Source: Brevibacillus laterosporus (GTDB taxonomy: Bacteria > Bacillota > Bacilli > Brevibacillales > Brevibacillaceae). From it: 64,000 bases of DNA. This document shows, one piece after another, positions 11,936 to 39,901 of this stretch. The notes beneath the pieces are model-generated. The model worked only from the letters and a program-made list of their open reading frames with translations, was not told the DNA's origin and made no database searches. The DNA lies in contig CP033464.1 in assembly GCA_007833815.1 (NCBI GenBank), positions 2,970,001-3,034,000 on the forward strand. Direction: 5' to 3'. The position numbers and the translations under genes are program-made. Numbering within the stretch: the first letter of the stretch is position 1; every line of letters starts with the position of its first letter.

Positions 11936-12937
11936 ATGCAGATAGACATTCGGGCAGAACTCGAACAGTTTCCGTGGACAGCCGCAACGTGGACGGAGGA
12001 TAAGCTGCTTGCGGCCAGTCCGTTCCGTTTGGATCGGTCGCCGTCATTCTACGTATGGTTACGGGATAGTAATATAGCAAAAGCCGGCTACTGGTCGGAT
12101 TTAGGCGCTCAGGACCCGGATTATCAACGTGGTGGGATCGTGAAGTTACTGGTGTTTTTACGGGAGGAAACGGAAGGAGAGACGCGGGAATACTTACGGT
12201 GGAAATACGGGGAGGGAACGGTTGACCCCGATGAGCTGACGCTGGACCTGTCGGGGAGCTTGCGGCTGTCTTTGGGGCACTTAAGATCAATAGATTCGAG
12301 CTTGTTGTCGGAATATGAACGTACAAAGCACGAGTATCTAACATCACGCGGGATATCTCAGGAAGTGCAACAGTTATTTCATACGGGATACTGTCCGATT
12401 ACCAACGCGATAACCATGCCATGGTTTAACGCGGATGGAACGCTTGGTAACGTTAAGTATCGAAAAATTAGCGAGAAATCGTTCTGGTACGCAAAGGGAG
12501 GGCGGCCTATCCGGGAGATGGTTTACGGTTTACACATCGTATACACACAGAAGATCAAGCGGGCAGTACTCGTGGAATCAGATATTGACGCAATGTATTT
12601 ATGGAGCGTGGGGGTCCCGGCTATTGCTCTTGGGGGGTCGAACTTTAGCGAGGAGAAGGCGGAGGCTCTACGGAGGAGTCCGTTGGAGGGAGTCGCGGTA
12701 ATGGCAGATCACGACGAGGCCGGACAGAAGATGAAACGGGCTGTTGTCGGAGAGATGGCTGGGTATATGACGGTTAAAGTCGTAGGGTATCCGATCCGAT
12801 ACAAGGACCCGAACGAAATAAAAAATAAGGCAGAATTAAATCATGTGTTAAAAAATGTGTTTACAGATAAAAAAAGTTTTATTAAGATAAATTTTTGTAA
12901 AGGTGATGATTATTTTTTACGAAATATGATTTCATAA
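11936..12937 (+). CDS. TOPRIM DNA primase-like protein
   Basis: A TOPRIM domain is shown by LVESDIDAMYLWSVG (about residue 210) and MADHDEAGQKM (about 256), which hold the catalytic Glu and DxD residues that make RNA primers. The N-terminal part, SPFRLDRSPSFYVW, resembles the CHC2-type substrate-binding start of phage primases but without zinc cysteines. The last 35 or so codons are abruptly AT-rich and overlap a - strand gene, so the natural C-terminus may have been replaced when the regulatory island joined. Confidence 0.8.
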   Translation: MQIDIRAELEQFPWTAATWTEDKLLAASPFRLDRSPSFYVWLRDSNIAKAGYWSDLGAQDPDYQRGGIVKLLVFLREETEGETREYLRWKYGEGTVDPDELTLDLSGSLRLSLGHLRSIDSSLLSEYERTKHEYLTSRGISQEVQQLFHTGYCPITNAITMPWFNADGTLGNVKYRKISEKSFWYAKGGRPIREMVYGLHIVYTQKIKRAVLVESDIDAMYLWSVGVPAIALGGSNFSEEKAEALRRSPLEGVAVMADHDEAGQKMKRAVVGEMAGYMTVKVVGYPIRYKDPNEIKNKAELNHVLKNVFTDKKSFIKINFCKGDDYFLRNMIS

Positions 12938-13128
12938 TCAAGAGCTTCAAGTAGGGTAATAACATCACTCAAGTTCATATTTTCTCGTGTAAGGCGCATG
13001 CTAAAAGTTGATTCCTTCACGCCTAATAGTTCGGCTAATTCCTTATAAGTTTTTATTTTCTTCTCTGCTTTCATAATATCTAAGCACTCTTTAAACGTAT
13101 TTCCTTGTAGTTCAATTTCCTTCTTCAT
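12910..13128 (-). CDS. XRE-type repressor-like protein (72 aa)
   Basis: A helix-turn-helix is visible in YKELAELLGVKESTFSMRLT, followed by MNLSDVITLLEAL. AAAGGAGAG lies nine bases before ATG 13128; the longer frame to 13173 lacks a site. It is divergent from the RRNPP receptor gene, and the 20-bp phased CACATAATGTG sites lie between them, so it could bind or be controlled by those sites. Confidence 0.7.
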   Translation of the reverse strand: MKKEIELQGNTFKECLDIMKAEKKIKTYKELAELLGVKESTFSMRLTRENMNLSDVITLLEALDYEIIFRKK

Positions 13129-13190
13129 CTGGAATATCTCTCCTTTACTAAATATATATTCATCATAGCACATATTTAAGTATAATACAG

Positions 13191-13241
13191 CACATAATGT
13201 ATTTTATATTCACATATTGTGTTGACAATTCACATAATGTG
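13191..13241. promoter_or_regulatory. Operator array of three phased palindromes
   Basis: CACATAATGTA (13191), CACATATTGTG (13211) and the perfect palindrome CACATAATGTG (13231) begin exactly 20 bases apart, about two helical turns, so bound proteins would face the same side of DNA. The third lies between the -35 and -10 boxes of the receptor promoter. Confidence 0.75.
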
Positions 13242-13250
13242 ATTTATACT
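13222..13250 (+). promoter_or_regulatory. Sigma-A type promoter for receptor-peptide operon
   Basis: TTGACA (13222-13227), a 17-base spacer and TATACT (13245-13250) form a near-consensus promoter ending 42 bases before the receptor ATG. The spacer contains one operator palindrome, which suggests repression by occlusion. Confidence 0.75.
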
Positions 13251-13292
13251 TTGTTTATACTATTTCGAATAATTGATGGCAGGTGATAACAA

Positions 13293-14624
13293 ATGATCGA
13301 CACCAGTGACTTGACTTATTATCGTCTTAAATTAAGGGAAGAAATACTAATCCAAATGCATTCAAATAATCTTAGTCAAAGAGACCTAGCTAAACTGTTG
13401 TACATTTCTCCTCAGTCGCTTTCTTATATTATGAAAAATAAGCAATCGCTTTCGATGGACCAGATAAATTTACTGACACGCGTGTTCAAACTAGACGACG
13501 ATTTTTTTTATGGAATGGTTTATGGAGAGCTTTTCAAGGATTCGTCCAAAGTCTCTCTTCCCAAAGTAACAGACTTTATTAAGGCTTGCTCTCACTGTAA
13601 ACCGGGTGTCAATCATTGTGGTAAAGTAGTCGAACTATTCTTGGAAACAATAGATATAAAGGATATGTCAACCGCCTTAACTTTTGCAGAGACACTTTTC
13701 GGCTACGGCTTTCTAGCAGAGGCCGCGTCTGTATATTACGCAATTACAAATATTGAAAAGAAAATATCAGAAAGGTTTGCGGTTTGCTGCCATCGAATTT
13801 TCTTGATCGAACGCGACAGGGATATGCGTAAGAAGGGCGTAGAGGCATTACATAAACTACGAGCGGTACTGAACGATTTGCCCACAGAATATCCTGCGCA
13901 GAAAAACGGTGATGTAGAAACAGTAAATTTACAATTAGATGGGTACTATCGTATCGTTACTTGGTATAATGTTACCAAAGAGTGGGAGGAGCTTTCTGTT
14001 ATTGCAGATGCATACTACAAAGAGGCAAAGGACGCCAAAGATACCGAGCATCTAGGGGAGTCGCTTCTTTATCGAGCCGCAAGTTTAATAGGATTGGGAG
14101 AACTCAGAAAAGCGGCAGAACTTCTCAGAGAGTGTCACGATATAGGGGATTATTACCGTTGGGCAGCGTTGTCAAATGAAAAGTTAATCGAAGTAATGGA
14201 GGGCAAGATCGAAGCCGTAAGCGAATTTATCCGGCTGGTTGTAGATAAGAACCGCGAACATGAAATCATTACGGTAGCTCCATATGCCATACGGATTTTA
14301 CTTTCAAAAGGGCAATTAGAAAGAATAGATGTTTTTTTAGAGAAATATAACGCAATTTTTGAGTCTATTTCATTAAAAAAGGATAAGTATAATAAGAGTC
14401 AATTTTATAATTTTCAAGTAGTTAGATTACAGTATTATCTAGCTAAGAAACAATATAAAGAAGCATTTAACGACGTTCTTGAAGTGATGAAAACTGCATT
14501 AGAATTCGGGGATATTTCAATATACCAAGAAATGTCTGCGATCCTCTTTGAGCACAAGGCTATTCTAGGAGAGGACGTTGAACATAGATATATGAATATT
14601 TTAAAAAGGGGCGAAACAGGATGA
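13293..14624 (+). CDS. RRNPP-type HTH-TPR peptide receptor
   Basis: The N-terminal HTH (SQRDLAKLLYISPQSLSYI, about residues 27-45) is followed by about 370 residues of paired helices with TPR character, for example GESLLYRAASLIGLGELRKA and FNDVLEVMKTALEFGD. This is the architecture of the RRNPP family (NprR, PlcR, AimR), cytoplasmic regulators that bind re-imported peptides. At 443 residues it is slightly longer than NprR or AimR. The next gene overlaps its stop and encodes a secreted micro-peptide, the hallmark of such pairs. A lysis-lysogeny communication role (arbitrium-like) is inferred; sequence alone does not place it in the AimR subgroup. Confidence 0.8.
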   Translation: MIDTSDLTYYRLKLREEILIQMHSNNLSQRDLAKLLYISPQSLSYIMKNKQSLSMDQINLLTRVFKLDDDFFYGMVYGELFKDSSKVSLPKVTDFIKACSHCKPGVNHCGKVVELFLETIDIKDMSTALTFAETLFGYGFLAEAASVYYAITNIEKKISERFAVCCHRIFLIERDRDMRKKGVEALHKLRAVLNDLPTEYPAQKNGDVETVNLQLDGYYRIVTWYNVTKEWEELSVIADAYYKEAKDAKDTEHLGESLLYRAASLIGLGELRKAAELLRECHDIGDYYRWAALSNEKLIEVMEGKIEAVSEFIRLVVDKNREHEIITVAPYAIRILLSKGQLERIDVFLEKYNAIFESISLKKDKYNKSQFYNFQVVRLQYYLAKKQYKEAFNDVLEVMKTALEFGDISIYQEMSAILFEHKAILGEDVEHRYMNILKRGETG

Positions 14625-14764
14625 AAGCAATTATGATCACATTAGTAGCACTTGTCTCTGTCTTATTCACTCAACCGGCACAAGCAGAAGCATTGAGGTA
14701 TAATATCGATTCGGAAAAGAGCGTAACTTACGTGACTTCGAAGATAGTTGGAGGAGGATGGTAG
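14621..14764 (+). CDS. Signal pro-peptide of the RRNPP receptor (47 aa)
   Basis: ATGA overlap with the receptor stop gives direct translational coupling. The 47-residue product has a Lys, a hydrophobic core (ITLVALVSVLF) and a signal-peptidase site after QPAQA (about residue 22), then a 23-25 residue hydrophilic pro-region ending SKIVGGGW. Known RRNPP pro-peptides are exported and trimmed to a C-terminal 5-10 residue signal, so the mature signal is probably drawn from these last residues. The SK..IVG portion recalls the NprX signal of Bacillus but is not identical. A terminator follows after 16 bases. Confidence 0.8.
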   Translation: MKAIMITLVALVSVLFTQPAQAEALRYNIDSEKSVTYVTSKIVGGGW

Positions 14765-14780
14765 GAATAGCGGTTGTTAG

Positions 14781-14808
14781 GACACCTGTATAAGGTGTCT
14801 TTTTTTTT
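14781..14808 (+). terminator. Terminator of the receptor-peptide operon
   Basis: A perfect 7-bp stem GACACCT/AGGTGTC with a GTATA loop is followed by nine T residues. Read-through would run antisense into the convergent XRE gene at 14995-15252. Confidence 0.9.
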
Positions 14809-14950
14809 GTTGTTGGTTTCGTCTAATTTCGACAAAATGCGAGAAAAATCAAAATTATAAAGCTAGTAGTAAAATTATCCTTTAGTGGGTGTACAATAAA
14901 AACAAGATAGTGGGATGGAGCACTATATAAGAAGAGACTAAGCAATGCAT

Positions 14951-14966
14951 TACCGAAGTTTCGGTA
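14951..14966. promoter_or_regulatory. 16-bp palindrome near the XRE gene end
   Basis: TACCGAAGTTTCGGTA is a nearly perfect palindrome 29 bases beyond the stop of the - strand XRE gene, and a second hairpin (AGCGG/CCGCT) overlaps that stop. They lack T runs; they may be an operator or an RNA 3' structure. The 170 bases between the terminator at 14808 and this gene hold no ORF that I can support. Confidence 0.35.
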
Positions 14967-14994
14967 CAAAAGTCGGTGAGAGCGGATGATCCCG

Positions 14995-15252
14995 CTACTC
15001 TTCTCGGTCCCGATTGTTGTTACGGTTACGCTCTGAGGGAGGTATCTCGACCCATTCGTATAAATCGTCGATCTGACACCCGAGTGTGTGAGCAATAGCT
15101 TTCGCGTTAGATAACGACATGACATTACGATTGTTTGCGTAGTCGGATACTTGTTGGCGCTTCATATGAATCTTTTCCGCAAGTTCTGTCTGCGTCATAC
15201 CAGCGAGCTGTAACCGTTCATACAAGCGGCACCTTCCGACTTTAAAAGTCAT
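14995..15252 (-). CDS. XRE-family transcriptional regulator (CI-like candidate)
   Basis: The 85-residue protein is a single HTH domain: MTQTELAEKIHMKRQQVSDY (about residues 19-38), then LSNAKAIAHTLGCQIDDLYEW, followed by a basic Asn/Arg tail. AGAGGTG lies upstream of the ATG. It is divergent from the sigma-like gene at 15372, and the shared gap holds one copy of the TGTCCCAA...CTATTAATAG element. It is a natural candidate for the lysogeny repressor; which sites it binds is not shown by sequence. Confidence 0.8.
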   Translation of the reverse strand: MTFKVGRCRLYERLQLAGMTQTELAEKIHMKRQQVSDYANNRNVMSLSNAKAIAHTLGCQIDDLYEWVEIPPSERNRNNNRDREE

Positions 15253-15295
15253 ATGGCACCTCTGATTACCATTATCAAAAATAATTTTTTAACAG

Positions 15296-15337
15296 TGTCC
15301 CAACTTGGGTGTAAGCATGGTCCTATTAATAGTATAG
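15296..15337 (+). promoter_or_regulatory. Repeated regulatory element, copy 4
   Basis: TGTCCCAACTTG...GGTCCTATTAATAGTATAG aligns without gaps to the elements at 670, 825 and 988. It ends 34 bases before the sigma-like gene. As a promoter it would give a short leader; as an operator it sits ideally between the divergent XRE and sigma-like genes. Confidence 0.55.
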
Positions 15338-15371
15338 AGGAAAAACATAGAAAATGGAGGAGTAAATTTTG

Positions 15372-15962
15372 ATGGGTAAAAAAATAGAGAGGACAGTAAT
15401 TGCTGCTAGAGAAGGGTGTCACATATCAAGGGATTTAGTTTATAGAGAGTTTATCCCAATAATAAATAACTACGCACATAATAACTGGTTTAAGGTCCAG
15501 AACGAAGCAACTTTAACAAATCGGCTACTCGCAAAATTAGATGAAACTATTAAGGATTATAACGTGGAAAGGGGATCGTTCCATAAATTAGTTAGAATTA
15601 ACTTGGAAAGGTCATTTAGGCTATTTATAAAAAGTAGAAAGTATTGTAATGGAAACTTGACTCCATTACACAAGAATGTTGATGAAGACGGAAATACTCT
15701 AGCTGACCTGTTGCCTGATATCTTGGTGGATATTGAAAGCAACGTAATCGAAAAAGAGTCAGTAAAAGAAAAAATCGCCCTTTTGGCGAAGGGCGATTTG
15801 AGAAAAAAAGCGATCCTACTCGCTTGGTCTGACGGCTTCTATAATGACTCAGCTCTTTCGGAGTTGTTGACGCAACTCTTTGGAGGTAAACCTGATTCAC
15901 ATAGACGAGCCATCACAAGGTTTAGAACATTTTGTCAAGCGGCCCTCTCACAGACAGCCTAA
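15372..15962 (+). CDS. Sigma-70-like factor, divergent
   Basis: Residues of about 25-92 resemble sigma region 2 (YNVERGSFHKLVRINLERSF, then RLFIKSRK), and the C-terminal 50 residues contain a helix-turn-helix-like segment (ILLAWSDGFYNDSALSELLT). This suggests a phage-encoded sigma factor redirecting host RNA polymerase. The fit is weak and it could be another DNA-binding protein. ATG 15372 follows TGGAGGAG. The gene lies in the AT-rich regulatory island, directly after a copy of the repeated element. Confidence 0.5.
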   Translation: MGKKIERTVIAAREGCHISRDLVYREFIPIINNYAHNNWFKVQNEATLTNRLLAKLDETIKDYNVERGSFHKLVRINLERSFRLFIKSRKYCNGNLTPLHKNVDEDGNTLADLLPDILVDIESNVIEKESVKEKIALLAKGDLRKKAILLAWSDGFYNDSALSELLTQLFGGKPDSHRRAITRFRTFCQAALSQTA

Positions 15963-26754: not shown

Positions 26755-26945
26755 ACACGTATGACGAGCAGCCAATCGTACGATCACTCCGTTACCTACG
26801 CGAGGAGCTAGAGGACGTAAACGAAAGTTTGTCCGTCAGTGAACGAAGATGTCTGACGCTAATATTACGAAGGCAAACGATATTAAACGCGATAAGCGAT
26901 ATCGAAAGGGAGATGACGCGGATTGACTCGACTACTAACGGATGA
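26751..26945 (+). CDS. Small coiled-coil protein (64 aa)
   Basis: ATG 26751 overlaps the stop of the membrane peptide. The product is a charged helix pair (YLREELEDVNESLSVSERR). A longer frame upstream is a shadow of the membrane gene. It overlaps the start of the reductase. Confidence 0.5.
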   Translation: MNTYDEQPIVRSLRYLREELEDVNESLSVSERRCLTLILRRQTILNAISDIEREMTRIDSTTNG

Positions 26946-28167
26946 GTTTATCGGGAAATACCCGGATTTTCCCGAACACATGAACGAGCTTGGCAAATTC
27001 GTATATTACCGGACATATTCACGGTGGTTGCCCGAAATGGGTCGCCGTGAAACGTGGAAGGAGACGTGCCGACGTGCCACGGAATACAACGTCGGGCTTG
27101 CGGTAAAGCATTACGAAAAGATCGGCTATACGGTGCCTTACGTGAGCTTACAGGTGGAAGCCGAGGGGTTTTTCAATGGCATGTTTAATCTACGTCGATT
27201 CCTGAGTGGGCGGACGTTATGGGTCGGAGGGACTGAGGCTGGGGCTAGATACAGTCTGGGCCAGTTTAATTGCAGCTTCCTTAATGTCCGAAGTTGGTCG
27301 GACTTAGGCGACCTGTTCTATCTGCTAATGGTCGGTACTGGCGTCGGTTTCAAGTGTACGAAGGAGTTCGTGGCAGGTCTGTCACCAATTCGCACTAATA
27401 CAACGCTAATCAACGCGCCCTACGAACCTGTTCCCGTAGACCGACGATTAGAACGAACGAAAGTGACCGAACTCGATAACGGCTACGTGAAAATCTACGT
27501 AGGCGACAGTAAAGAGGGGTGGGTCGAAGCACTCCGAGCGTATTTCGAAATCCTAACGGAACCGCAATACGAGTCAGTCCACACCGTGAAAATTTCGTAC
27601 AACTCAGTCCGGCCGAAAGGGGAACGATTGAAACGATTCGGAGGCACTGCGTCCGGTCACGAACCCCTTGCGGAGATGTTTGCGGGGATTGACCGCGTAT
27701 TGAAGAATCAGATCGACCCGACACTGGCTCCGTTGGAGACCGTTGTAGAAGTAACGGATAGCCCTGAATGGGGAGTGAGTGCCTACGACACCGATTACAA
27801 ACGCGTCCGCCCGATTCATGTTCTTGATATCGGCAATCTTATCGGAGCTAACGTAGTGGTCGGAGGCGTCCGTAGAACAGCCGAAATATTCCTCTTCGAC
27901 GCGGACGACTACGAGTGTCTTCTCGCTAAGTACGGTATCAACGGTGTCTGGACGGAAGATCAACTCGCGCATCATCGCAAGGTAGGCGAAATGCTAGAAG
28001 CCATCGGACGAAAGCCGGAGTGGTTCGACGCTATTTCGAAAGCAGGTGACGGTCGGTTCGGACTTGACCATCGAAGACTATCGAATAACTCTATCGCGTT
28101 CGAAACGAAACCTAGCCGTGGAATGCTTAACCTCGTGTTCGAGATTATGAAAGGCGAAGGTGAACCT
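26923..28167 (+). CDS. nrdJ: Class II ribonucleotide reductase, exon 1
   Basis: The first 415 codons encode the N-terminal part of an adenosylcobalamin-dependent ribonucleotide reductase, which makes dNTPs from ribonucleotides. QFNCSFLNVRSWSDL holds the first redox cysteine (about residue 116), and LFYLLMVGTGVGF is typical of the class II family. The reading frame runs to a stop at 28173 inside the intron. Joining GAA CCT at 28167 to GGA TTT at 29185 restores the conserved E-P-G-F sequence and gives 754 residues, close to known class II enzymes. Confidence 0.9.
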
Positions 28168-29184
28168 AGATAATAACTGGGCTTCGGCGTAGTGATATGC
28201 CGTCGAAACTCCTCTAAATGCTGGAACACCCTAAAGCCGCGCGCCCACAACGTGACTGGTGACGGTGAGCGTGATGGGTCAAAAACGGCGCGGATGCAAC
28301 AATGGGCAATCAGCAGGTAAGCAGGTGTCCGCTAATCCTATCGAAAAGAGTGGCGGATATAGACAAACACCAGTTTCTCATTGAAAACTATTCCAAAATG
28401 TCAACGGAGGAGCTAGCTAAGACACTCGGTTACAAGAATGCATCCTCACTACGTACAGTCGCTAGTCGATTAGGCATCAAGAAGTCATATAAAATCGAGG
28501 ATATTTCCGGGGAGAACTGGCTAGAACATCCGGATTACCCTGACTTTTTAGTCAGCAACAAAGGCCGCATTAAATCGAGAACACGTAACACGCTGATTTT
28601 TACGCGTGTACACGAGGGTTACTATGATTGCAGGATTAAAGACAAGTCCGGTAAAAAGAAATCACCACGCATTCATAGGCTGGTCGCAGAAGTGTTCGTT
28701 CCGAATCCAAAAGGATTACCATTCGTTAACCACGTGGACGGGAACAAGCTGAATAATGATGCTACTAACCTAGAATGGGTCACGCGATCAGAAAACAGCA
28801 GACACGCTCGTGAAATGGGGCTGGTTGGGGTAAGAAGGGATACTTTGGATGAAGATTCAGTAAGAGACATATGCAAGAAATTACAAGCTGGTGCGTCGAT
28901 ACGTGAGATAACACATTCTAACGCGAGGTACACTCGAGCAAGAGTAGAAGGTATACGGCAGCGTCGTCGATGGCTGAGAATTAGTGGAGATTATTCTTGG
29001 TAAAGTAATTTCTGGCGGACACCTGAAACCTCAACGACCATCCCTTTGAGGGAGTACGCTGCAAGCGGTAGGCAGTGGAAATGGGGAGGCGCTCATGTAG
29101 CGTTTGATATGGTCTGGACTTGCGGGAAACCGTAAGCAGCTCAAAAGAGCGGCGCAAGCCTAGCGAACTTGCGTGAACAAGTCG
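28168..29184 (+). mobile_element. Group I intron in nrdJ
   Basis: The 1017-base insert splits nrdJ between E-P and G-F codons. The upstream exon ends in T and the intron ends in G, as group I introns require. Core-like stretches are visible: AATGGGCAATCAGCAG (28301-28316, P/Q side) and GATATGGTCTGGACT (29107-29121, S side). An HNH endonuclease ORF is nested inside. The two splice junctions were placed by restoring the protein frame, not by experiment. Confidence 0.85.
28302..29003 (+). CDS. Intron-encoded HNH homing endonuclease
   Basis: The protein has an HTH-like start ([20 protein letters not shown]), a NUMOD4-like stretch ([20 protein letters not shown]), and the HNH core [14 protein letters not shown]...[10 protein letters not shown]. 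It should cut intron-less nrdJ alleles and so spread the intron. The ATG at 28302 lies within the intron core, so real translation may begin at a later codon such as GTG 28350; no good SD site is seen. Confidence 0.85.
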
Positions 29185-30204
29185 GGATTTATCAACTTGG
29201 AAGAGGCGCGACGAAGACGGCCAAACGCCGAGGGCCTTAATCCCTGCGCGGAAATACTACTGGATTCATACGGGGTCTGCAACTTAACGACTGTCAACGT
29301 CATGCAGTTCGTGCGCGACGGTAGCCTCGACATTCCCGCACTCCTACAAGCACAAAGACAATCCGCACGTGCCGGCCTGCGCATGACTCTCGTAACACTC
29401 GAATTATCACACTGGGACGCGATCCAGCAACGTGACAGGCTCCTCGGCACGTCGTTAACCGGATGGAAAGACGCGATGGCAGCCGTTAACTATAACGAAC
29501 GTCAGGAACGCGACTTACTCGAACTCCTCGGAACAGTGGCGAATGATGAGGCGGAAGCCTATGCGAAGGAACTCCGTGTGAACGCACCTTTACTCGTCAC
29601 AACGGTCAAGCCGGAGGGCACTATCTCACAAGTAGCAGGCGGCGTATCGTCCGGCCTACATTGGTCGCACAGCCCGTACTACATCCGTCGCATTCGTATC
29701 AACGCGTCCGATCCACTCGTAAAGGTGGCGCAAGAACTCGGCTGGACGGTTAATCCCGAGGTAGGAACACCGGGCGACACCGAAGCAGAACGTCTCACTA
29801 ACGCCCGTACACTGGTCGTCGACTTTCCCGTAGCTTCTGGCGCGTTAGAAACGAAAGACGACGTAAGTGCAACGCGTCAATTCGAGACCTACTTCCGATT
29901 CCAGCGCTCATACACCGACCACAACTCGTCCAATACGATCACGGTAAGGCCGGATGAATGGGCAACGGTTGAACAAACGGTGTGGGACGGATGGGACGAC
30001 TTCGTAGGCGTATCGTTCTTGGCGTTGGACGGTGGTACGTACCAGCTCGCGCCGTACGAGGCTATTACGAAAGAGGAATACGAGGAGCTACGTGCCAAGA
30101 TGAAGCCGTTTGATCCGGCGATCTTAGCGAAGTACGAAACGGATGGGACTAGCGATTTGGAGGGCGCGGATTCGTGCGAGTCTGGCGTTTGTCCTGTCAG
30201 GTGA
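29185..30204 (+). CDS. nrdJ: Class II ribonucleotide reductase, exon 2
   Basis: The second exon (339 codons plus stop) carries the catalytic N-x-C-x-E set in LNPCAEILLDSYGVCNLTT and the C-terminal redox pair ADSCESGVCPVR used for reduction by thioredoxin-like donors. A GTG at 29173, 12 bases before the exon, lies inside the intron and would give a separate ORF only if splicing failed. Downstream genes continue nucleotide metabolism (dUTPase, ThyX, dNMP kinase). Confidence 0.9.
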   Translation, partial: GFINLEEARRRRPNAEGLNPCAEILLDSYGVCNLTTVNVMQFVRDGSLDIPALLQAQRQSARAGLRMTLVTLELSHWDAIQQRDRLLGTSLTGWKDAMAAVNYNERQERDLLELLGTVANDEAEAYAKELRVNAPLLVTTVKPEGTISQVAGGVSSGLHWSHSPYYIRRIRINASDPLVKVAQELGWTVNPEVGTPGDTEAERLTNARTLVVDFPVASGALETKDDVSATRQFETYFRFQRSYTDHNSSNTITVRPDEWATVEQTVWDGWDDFVGVSFLALDGGTYQLAPYEAITKEEYEELRAKMKPFDPAILAKYETDGTSDLEGADSCESGVCPVR

Positions 30205-34638: not shown

Positions 34639-36078
34639 ATGTTGATAGTGGGATTTACGTATGTTTCGCTATTTTCTGGAATCGGTGGTTTTGAAACGGC
34701 ATTAAACGCACTCGGTGGTAGATGCGTCTTTGCGAGCGAGATTGATAAATACGCGAACAAGGCTTACGAGGTGCTATATGGAGAGTCTACGGCTGGCGAC
34801 GTTACACAGATCGCAGCCGAATCCGTACCGGATCACGATTTACTAGTCGGTGGCTTCCCGTGTCAGGCGTTCTCAGTAGCGGGTAAGCAACTCGGTTTCG
34901 ATGATACGCGAGGCACCCTATTCTTCGAGATTGCACGGATTGCTCGCGTGAAGAAGCCGAGGATGTTGCTGTTAGAAAACGTAAAGGGACTCGTCAGCCA
35001 CGATAAAGGCAGGACGCTTGATACGATTATCCAGACGTTAGACGAGATGGGATATGCGGTGGACTTCCGTGTACTCAATTCAAAATATTTCGGCGTACCG
35101 CAGAATAGAGAGCGTATCTTTATTGTTGCGGTAAGAGACGCGTTGCACGAGTCCTGGGCAATCTCGAAGAATAGGGGTGTTGTCGAGCGTGCCAAAGAAC
35201 GGATAAAGGCGTTAGGTGTCCGGATATTTAATTTCGATTGGCCTAATGAGGGTACGGTTACGACATGCATTCGGGACATTCTCGAAGATGATGTTGAAGA
35301 GAAGTATTATCTGAGTGAAGAGAAGACGGCGAAGTTGATCGCTCAATTGAACGGTACGCATGAAGGCGTAACCCAAAGATTTCTTATCGATGATCAAGGA
35401 CGGACCACGAAAGAACTACGTCCACTCAATGTATCCCCTACGATTAGGCGTGAGATGCACGGGAATGAACCGAGAGTAGTCGAGCCGGATTTAGTACAGA
35501 TCGGACTCCTCGACATGAAAGGCAATGAATCAATACGCCGAGTCTACTCGGCGGAAGGGGTTTCGCCAACGCTCACGACAATGGGCGGTGGGCACCGTGA
35601 ACCGAAAGTCGTAATTGAACGCCCACAACAGTTTACGGACGGGGCTGGAATCAGCTACTGCCTGGACGCTAACTACGCTAAAGGCACGTCACTAGGAGAT
35701 TTAGGGAAGGGTCGTCGTACGCATGTAACGGAGGAAGTCCGCCCTGTTCTAACGCCTGATCGCGTTGAAAAAAGGCAGAACGGGCGCCGTTTCAAAAAGG
35801 AAGGGGAGCCGGCGTTCACACTAACCGCACAGGACAAGCACGGGGTCGCTATCGGAAACTACCCGCGCTACCGCATCCGCAAACTAACACCACTCGAATG
35901 CTTCCGTTTACAAGGATTCCCAGACACTTATTATCACGCGTTAAAATCCGCAGGAATCAGCGACTCTCAACTCTACAAAATGGCGGGCAATGCCGTAACT
36001 GTTAACGTAATAAGCGCGATAGGCAGGCGTTTATTACCGTATTTGACGGAAGAGTCTACGGTAAAGGAGGCGGCGTAA
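34639..36078 (+). CDS. C5-cytosine DNA methyltransferase
   Basis: Motif I (SLFSGIGGFE), motif IV (GGFPCQAFS, catalytic Cys), motif VI (LLLENVKG), motif VIII (QNRERIFIVA) and the C-terminal motif X (YKMAGNAVTVNVI) are clear. It transfers a methyl group to cytosine C5. The target-recognition region is long (about 190-400) with repeated SPT(L/I) type motifs, suggesting more than one recognition unit. No partner restriction enzyme is seen, so it probably protects phage DNA. The start is ambiguous: GTG 34648 is an option. Confidence 0.9.
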   Translation: MLIVGFTYVSLFSGIGGFETALNALGGRCVFASEIDKYANKAYEVLYGESTAGDVTQIAAESVPDHDLLVGGFPCQAFSVAGKQLGFDDTRGTLFFEIARIARVKKPRMLLLENVKGLVSHDKGRTLDTIIQTLDEMGYAVDFRVLNSKYFGVPQNRERIFIVAVRDALHESWAISKNRGVVERAKERIKALGVRIFNFDWPNEGTVTTCIRDILEDDVEEKYYLSEEKTAKLIAQLNGTHEGVTQRFLIDDQGRTTKELRPLNVSPTIRREMHGNEPRVVEPDLVQIGLLDMKGNESIRRVYSAEGVSPTLTTMGGGHREPKVVIERPQQFTDGAGISYCLDANYAKGTSLGDLGKGRRTHVTEEVRPVLTPDRVEKRQNGRRFKKEGEPAFTLTAQDKHGVAIGNYPRYRIRKLTPLECFRLQGFPDTYYHALKSAGISDSQLYKMAGNAVTVNVISAIGRRLLPYLTEESTVKEAA

Positions 36079-37295
36079 TGGGAAAAGCCGACCGCAAACG
36101 GTGGGACGGAAATGTACGTTCAATGGCGATAGTTACGAAAGCACTCGAAGATATCACGGAGGATGACGTTCAGTTTCTGCGCGACAATTACACGTCGGCA
36201 GGCGGCTTACTCCCGAATGCCTGCTCCGGTGGGGCTTTCTTCACGCCGGCACATGTGGCGCGGTTCATGGTCGAAGCGATTGCGGGGTTGTCTGGAGAAT
36301 TTACGTCAGGCACCCGCGTACTTGAACCGTCAGCCGGCTCCGGCGTCTTTCTCGAACACATTCCGATAGATTGCGAAATTACTGCGCTCGAATTGGACGA
36401 AACGAGCGCGAAGGTGACGAAGCTCATTTATCCGCACGTTAACGTTATAAATGCGGATGCACTAACGCATGAGCGACGCGACTACTACGACCTAGTCATC
36501 GGTAACCCGCCGTACGGGCTGACGCTAGAAACGGAGCGCGACGATTTCCAGACGATGAGCAAGTCGAAAGGGAAGTATCGCGGCAAGTCCGAGAACGTGT
36601 TCATTGAACTCGCCATTAAGGCAGCGAAGCCCGGCGGTTACATTGCGTTTGTCCTGCCGATGGGCGTTTCGTTCTCGCAAGTGTCCAAAAAGATACGCCG
36701 CCTAATGTACGAAACGTGCTGGCAAATTGCGACGGTCCACCTGCCGGGCGAAACGTTCCAACATGTAGGGACGACGATAGAAACGCAGATATTGATATTA
36801 CGGAAGGCGCCACCTGACACTCCGTTATTTGAACCCGCGACTAAACGATGGAGATCGAGCTTTAAGCGTGGGGGAGACGGCGCTATCACGCAATACGATG
36901 CGCGGTTCCTAGCCGGACAGCCTCCGTCCTATTTCGCGGTGGTGACGGACATCGGGTGGGATACGAAGGGGCGACGGACTGAGGCGGCACAACTGGACGA
37001 TCTGCTCGTGGACTTTACGGATGACGGCTTAGTCCGCGAGAACTTGTATCCACATATTCCGAGTTGGCACGGGATCGGCAAGGGTAACGAGGCGTTTTTC
37101 TTCTCGCATGGTAACGGCTACTGCGATGGATACAGAGACGGGTCCCGAACGTATGCCGACGGACCTTACCGGTGGAATGAACTGACACTCGGCGCGGGCG
37201 ATGAGATAGACGGTAATAGTACGTGGGACTTCGAGTGGATGGATCGGATTGTGGCGGAGTATTACGAGGGAACTACGATAAGGGAGGCGGCGTAA
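36078..37295 (+). CDS. N6-adenine DNA methyltransferase
   Basis: VLEPSAGSGVFLEHI (SAM-binding motif I) and VIGNPPYG (catalytic motif IV) mark an N6-type methyltransferase. The C-terminal half has no clear nuclease motif, so it is likely an orphan methyltransferase. The start overlaps the C5 gene stop (TAATG). Together they would hide the phage from more than one host restriction system; that is inference. Confidence 0.85.
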   Translation: MGKADRKRWDGNVRSMAIVTKALEDITEDDVQFLRDNYTSAGGLLPNACSGGAFFTPAHVARFMVEAIAGLSGEFTSGTRVLEPSAGSGVFLEHIPIDCEITALELDETSAKVTKLIYPHVNVINADALTHERRDYYDLVIGNPPYGLTLETERDDFQTMSKSKGKYRGKSENVFIELAIKAAKPGGYIAFVLPMGVSFSQVSKKIRRLMYETCWQIATVHLPGETFQHVGTTIETQILILRKAPPDTPLFEPATKRWRSSFKRGGDGAITQYDARFLAGQPPSYFAVVTDIGWDTKGRRTEAAQLDDLLVDFTDDGLVRENLYPHIPSWHGIGKGNEAFFFSHGNGYCDGYRDGSRTYADGPYRWNELTLGAGDEIDGNSTWDFEWMDRIVAEYYEGTTIREAA

Positions 37296-39844: not shown

Positions 39845-39901
39845 ATGACAGAATCTGATTGGACAAAACAACGTTTTAATGACGGTGGAATCGGCTGGTA
39901 A
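39845..39901 (+). CDS. W/DPG micro-protein 5, divergent (18 aa)
   Basis: CGAAGGGG precedes ATG 39845. The product MTESDWTKQRFNDGGIGW keeps the TE-x-DW start and a QR motif shared with copy 4, but ends GIGW in place of DPGY. Confidence 0.5.
   Translation: MTESDWTKQRFNDGGIGW

Follow-up and report, generated by a model that had tools for sequence, protein, structure and literature searches.

A Brevibacillus laterosporus prophage carries a probable RRNPP-type receptor-peptide pair between repressor-like genes that may act on the lysogeny balance

To our knowledge, arbitrium in Bacillus phages is the tested case in which an RRNPP peptide controls phage lysogeny. AimR acts on aimX, which is on when the receptor is free and off in the presence of the peptide. 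In the Paenibacillaceae, the AloR/AloP systems consist of an HTH-TPR receptor gene followed by a small propeptide gene, and the AloP13 pheromone is SHGRGG (PMC7425212). In addition, candidate cluster 8 of RRNPP_detector is reported to have a laterosporus plasmid example (PMC10075063), and the receptor family described here may be, or may include, this cluster. Within the part of the literature that we could reach, we found no tested RRNPP or arbitrium system from a Brevibacillus phage; the wider literature may hold more.

The window, a 64,000-nt stretch of the B. laterosporus genome (G000:C4 2970001-3034000), lies wholly within one prophage of about 66 kb. The prophage is bracketed by a 115-bp exact repeat with copies at 2969753-2969867 and 3036038-3036152; the left copy coincides with the end of spo0A (3' side), a gene that we named by eye from its sequence, and the right copy adjoins a tyrosine integrase gene on the minus strand. 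The attachment site is the spo0A 3' end (L070 14753-14867, L071 2038-2152; both flanks, outside the window). Since the repeat spans the last 25 spo0A codons, the stop codon and 37 bp beyond, spo0A stays whole. A related prophage in genome G002 likewise starts beside spo0A (L085). The prophage carries replication, nucleotide-metabolism and packaging genes. An HNH endonuclease gene interrupts the ribonucleotide reductase at profile position 365/366 (26923-28173, 28302-29003, 29173-30204), the layout that a mobile intron or an intein-like insertion would produce, and two tandem DNA methyltransferase-like genes lie at 34639-37295. The locus of interest runs from a primase gene (11936-12937) through xreA, the receptor gene, the propeptide gene and a terminator to xreB and a further gene, for which we found no Pfam match at 0.001 and no relative in L060 (Table 1).

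Table 1 Features of the receptor-peptide locus (positions in the window)
Feature	Position	Strand	Remarks
xreA, 72-aa XRE/CI-type repressor-like	12910..13128	-	divergent from receptor; open frame reaches 13173
Three operator-like 11-bp palindromes	13191..13241	.	CACATAATGTA 13191, CACATATTGTG 13211, CACATAATGTG 13231; start to start 20 bp
xreA promoter candidate TTGTCA-16-TAAAAT	13201..13228	-	10/12 matches; second operator in spacer
Receptor promoter TTGACA-17-TATACT	13222..13250	+	11/12 matches; third operator in spacer
Receptor gene, 443 aa	13293..14624	+	HTH ~residues 6-80, TPR superhelix ~89-442
Propeptide gene, 47 aa	14621..14764	+	signal peptide, variable pro-region, C-terminal hexapeptide IVGGGW
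Codons of proposed mature hexapeptide IVGGGW	14744..14761	+	silent changes only in 6 sequences compared; register from tandem copies
Intrinsic-terminator-like hairpin	14779..14801	+	1 found vs shuffle mean 1.7; kept in 5 viral-contig relatives
Conserved non-coding block	14818..14907	.	downstream of terminator; 88-92% identical in L001, L003, L004
Weak promoter match TCGACA-18-AATTAT	14829-14858	+	9/12; within block, points at xreB 3' end
Palindrome TACCGAAGTTTCGGTA	14951..14966	.	between peptide gene and xreB
xreB, 85-aa XRE repressor-like	14995..15252	-	core-phage gene; also in phage contig L069, which is without the cassette
197-aa gene divergent from xreB, phrog_24888	15369..15962	+	sigma-like by eye only

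The initial annotation had described a 443-residue HTH-TPR gene that overlaps a 47-residue gene and is followed by a terminator, and this plan is confirmed, with an overlap of 4 nt and the hairpin listed in Table 1; because shuffled sequences contain such hairpins on average at least as often, the argument for the terminator is its place and not its number. Sequence and modelling indicate that the receptor joins a DNA-binding HTH to an NprR/Rap-like TPR superhelix, and its length and TPRs place it in the peptide-binding class of RRNPP(A), for which 250-500 aa is the stated range. The 50 rows shown of the fold search included NprR and Rap; AimR, PlcR, PrgX and Rgg were not among these rows, an absence that excludes no family. 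The fold alignment with NprR has 9% identity, and no NprR chain was among the PDB sequence matches listed at E up to 1 and up to 10 (in the further search, the best 60 of 87); the PDB sequence search did not list PlcR either, with the same limit on what absence implies.

The likeness to AimR/AimP that the annotation had drawn is upheld for the gene plan and fails for family membership. Like arbitrium, the pair has a phage-borne receptor, a probable hexapeptide signal and conserved non-coding DNA downstream. In contrast to arbitrium, it is flanked by XRE genes, and we identified no aimX-like gene and found no product for the downstream block. BLASTP against phi3T AimR gave a best E of 11, and hhalign of 34 receptors against three AimR sequences gave a probability of 0.4% (E 0.16), which together rule out membership of the AimR family. 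AloR-like homology was found in 18 plasmid records (15 Paenibacillus, 2 Brevibacillus and 1 Arthrobacter) at 20-30% identity, with four alignments covering 80% or more of the query. A receptor on a plasmid of P. polymyxa ATCC 842, possibly one of the numbered AloR, shows distant homology (26% identity over residues 14-172). AloP13 SHGRGG and IVGGGW are both hexapeptides with glycine third, whereas AloP tails read HGxGG and those of the window type G-x-G-W, and the window pair differs from AloR/AloP in belonging to a phage cassette that includes a divergent XRE gene and operators of its own. With the window receptor as the query, no annotated phage had a close receptor at E 1e-5; phages Emery and SecTim467 were reached only with the L061 and L064 receptors as queries. 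A receptor match was present in 29 of the 100 genomes searched, counting the window's own, which holds seven matches at E <=0.001 including the window receptor itself.

The propeptide gene directly adjoins the receptor gene and falls within the 10-100 aa range given for RRNPP(A). Its signal peptide was judged by eye from the basic start, the hydrophobic core and AQA, and the cut is expected after residue 22. A 47-aa propeptide ending in IVGGGW follows the receptor in all seven cases compared (the window, five IMG/VR contigs and genome G002, whose L013 is a near-copy of L004). Against L001, L003 and L004, codons 24-41 of the pro-region are 61% identical, the signal part 83-87% and the last six codons with the stop 90-95%, and the six sequences compared show none but silent differences in those six codons. 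The register of IVGGGW is given by tandem hexapeptide copies in Emery, L063, L064 and L093-L097, which fix the frame: HGGIGW twice in Emery gp61, EDGPGW twice in L063, DSGGGW twice in L064 and L093-L095, and DNGGGW twice in L096-L097. In each of these propeptides the first copy begins directly after a small-x-A site, the site type of a signal-peptidase cut, and the second ends at the stop. Together, the gene plan, the fold, the conservation of the C-terminal hexapeptide and the tandem hexapeptides in relatives strongly support the annotation's assignment to the RRNPP type, and we consider it highly probable that this is a true receptor-pheromone pair.

Among 18 non-orthologous receptors (phmmer E <=1e-20), nine have xxGEGW tails, one has WLGTGW, one has NVGEHG twice and seven have no recognisable propeptide (L014, L041, both of L042, one each of L043 and L047, and L048; all in G001, Brevibacillus dissolubilis). 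These seven G001 receptors, some of which stand in tandem, are possible eavesdroppers or recombining receptor arrays. In 25 stretches (444,155 bases, both strands), a set that includes near-copies (L062 and L075), 22 frames end in G-x-G-W-stop; 19 of them are propeptides beside receptors, two are a duplicated frame and one is antisense. Of the set's 22 receptor loci, 19 carry a frame of this kind; the exceptions are L087, L089 and L090. A duplicated stretch (~39886-39900; L071 ~6544) contains a frame that terminates in NDGGIGW-stop and so resembles the tail of Emery; it shows no recognisable signal peptide and may be due to chance. Glycine is the third hexapeptide residue in 27 of 27 distinct tails of a hand-compiled list that includes DNGARP (L009), where TKK comes between the hexapeptide and the stop, and leaves out L025 and L055 (both fitting; L055 ends QHGVGG), L023, L089 and L090 (no fit when read from the stop), near-copies, and loci without a pickable propeptide (L020, L028, L032, L034, L040, L087 and others). 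The window's genome has the tails IVGGGW, SVGEGW, SFGEGW, THGVGG, DNGARP (internal) and DAGERP in two copies, and the receptor that goes with SVGEGW shares 99% identity with a receptor of a viral contig. The annotation's suggestion that the peptide may be a new signal is compatible with what we found, as the literature available to us in part returned, for IVGGGW, DSGGGW, DNGGGW, HGGIGW, VGEGW and YGEGW, matches only on T-cell receptors and fatty acid desaturases and no relevant paper for the tails; IVGGGW may be new as far as this search extends.

The class of the peptide follows the branch of its receptor. A quick maximum-likelihood tree was built from 34 receptors that had been selected for likeness to the window receptor or its relatives. 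On this tree, the three peptide classes need three changes (the minimum is two), compared with a mean of 12.6 after shuffling and with none of 200 shuffles as low, in a sample where near-copies make a label cluster. One side of a branch (support 100) consists of the nine HGxGG (Alo-like) receptors. The window receptor is not on that side; its own branch is long (1.81) and lies close to the GEGW receptors and to two peptide-less G001 receptors (support 93, not starred). The receptors of L063, L064 and Emery fall on the Alo-like side. Because of this placement and the three changes needed, the GxGW receptors are not one clade, and the tail is therefore either ancestral or arose more than once.

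The triplet of palindromes between xreA and the receptor gene occurs once in the window, and when the 164-bp region was resampled 20,000 times (first-order), no resample contained one. Allowing up to two mismatches, the window has eight palindrome matches, six of which are the three sites read on both strands and two of which are single sites elsewhere; as shuffled sequences have 12.9 on average, more than this total, it is the clustering alone that stands out. The three sites have all changed in L004 and its near-copy L013, at unchanged spacing, and in L004 the recognition helix of XreA differs while that of the receptor is unchanged. XreA is therefore the likelier binder of the operators. 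The receptor as the binder of the CACATAATGTG operators appears less likely, judging from the single lineage L004.

Downstream of the terminator, the 41 bp next after the conserved block are 44-49% identical in the same three relatives, so that something in the block is probably under selection. That the block is the target of the receptor is a tentative proposal, which we regard as possible but rather doubtful. The region has 12 promoter-like sites compared with a shuffled mean of 7.5, and 12800-15500 has no Rfam match to a known RNA. The arms of TACCGAAGTTTCGGTA are exact in four of the five viral-contig relatives, and one arm base is changed in L004.

Phage contig L069 has the same order of loader, helicase, primase, xreB (60%) and the 15369 gene (43%), with about 100 bp between the primase and xreB matches, and no match to xreA, the receptor or the peptide at E 1e-3. 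Since L069 has the flanking order without the cassette, xreA, the receptor and the peptide form one removable unit placed beside xreB. A recurrent plan is seen in Emery, L063 and L064: first a minus-strand XRE gene (divergent or upstream), then the receptor and peptide genes, and lastly another XRE gene on the minus strand. In Emery, an isolated phage, gp59, gp60, gp61 and gp64 match this plan with gp62 and gp63 in between, and in L063 a 245-aa ORF separates the first XRE gene from the receptor. In L061 and L062 the XRE genes lie upstream of the receptor on the same strand. The two genes usually point the same way, whereas in L064 and L093-L097 they are convergent, with the peptide encoded on the other strand. 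Directly upstream of the receptor, L093 and L095 have a serine recombinase gene, and in L094 the frame of the recombinase is broken; in L096 and L097 a tyrosine integrase ends about 1.4-1.5 kb upstream of the receptor with other ORFs between. The placement among phage repressor-like genes that the annotation had pointed out is supported, both here and in Emery, L063 and L064, and recombinase or integrase genes accompany the receptor in other lineages as well. Not far from the RRNPP-type pair, Emery further carries an AgrB-like gene (L086 3257-3775; AgrB 3.9e-21) and after it a 38-aa ORF, so that one phage may combine two kinds of peptide signalling. Judged by its integrase, Emery is reported to be possibly temperate, yet no stable lysogens were obtained (PMC4909266).

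Read from the sequence, conservation is concentrated on the hexapeptide, xreA diverges from the operon with three phased operator-like sites over both predicted promoters, and core xreB lies just downstream. The explanation that we find best overall, with moderate confidence, is a prophage-encoded RRNPP-type pair acting on the lysogeny balance, and an influence of the pair on lysis versus lysogeny is reasonably likely. We infer the steps of export, trimming, uptake, binding, target and phenotype as follows. The propeptide would be exported by the Sec route and trimmed to IVGGGW, which would re-enter neighbouring cells through an oligopeptide permease and bind the TPR groove, altering the action of the receptor at phage DNA. 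XreA would keep the receptor-peptide operon low in the lysogen. On infection, the operon would be expressed and the peptide would accumulate with the number of infections, and the liganded receptor would tip the XreA/XreB region toward lysogeny. The most likely second target would be the conserved block, whose plus-strand promoter could yield an RNA antisense to xreB and, by analogy with AimR and aimX, would be driven by the free receptor and off with peptide.

A true RRNPP signal could instead act on host functions, such as sporulation or competence genes, for the benefit of the lysogen, so that the XRE vicinity would merely mark accessory DNA expressed from the prophage. The portability of the cassette and the position of the prophage in the spo0A 3' end fit such a role, as do the spo0E-like genes near receptors in phage SecTim467 and a Paenibacillus plasmid; links to spo0E-like genes are reported for some Alo systems (PMC7425212), and the RRNPP_detector study describes phage systems next to spo0E, abrB or rap (PMC10075063). 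However, a scan of seven proteins surrounding the window's pair recognised no homologue of spo0E, abrB or rap, the neighbours of the pair being XRE and replication genes, and we consider this explanation unlikely. Slightly less probable still is that the cassette regulates only itself, XreA and the receptor forming a closed switch for exclusion of, or immunity against, phages of the same peptide type without setting the phage's own lysis or lysogeny: the clustered operators are confined to the cassette and L069 dispenses with it, but the conserved block lies outside the operon, xreB is close by, and recombinase or integrase genes lie near the receptor in other lineages. That the small ORF is no signal, being a chance frame or an unrelated secreted peptide beside an XRE-TPR regulator that senses something else, is highly improbable, for although the signal peptide was called by eye and the seven G001 receptors of the 18 have no recognisable propeptide, the pattern of silent versus replacement changes and a tail motif that tracks both the receptor loci and the receptor tree rule out a chance ORF and argue against the rest.

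Returning to a signalling pair that acts on lysogeny, the temperate phages of Brevibacillus and its kin might share a peptide language apart from arbitrium, a broader reading to which we give about even chances. It would use xxGxGW hexapeptides (IVGGGW, DSGGGW, DNGGGW, HGGIGW and xxGEGW), carried in exchangeable cassettes beside repressors or integrases in several phage types, with several dialects per host genome. The window's genome has IVGGGW, SVGEGW and SFGEGW, the last at a locus that may or may not be in a prophage, and with several dialects in one host, co-resident phages could count their own kind separately. The locus offers exact peptides for synthesis, a natural cassette-less phage (L069) and an isolated phage with such a pair (Emery). 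If the reading is true, phages would seem to have recruited peptide counting more than once, given a second receptor branch that is not homologous to that of arbitrium and has a hexapeptide class of its own in several phage types.
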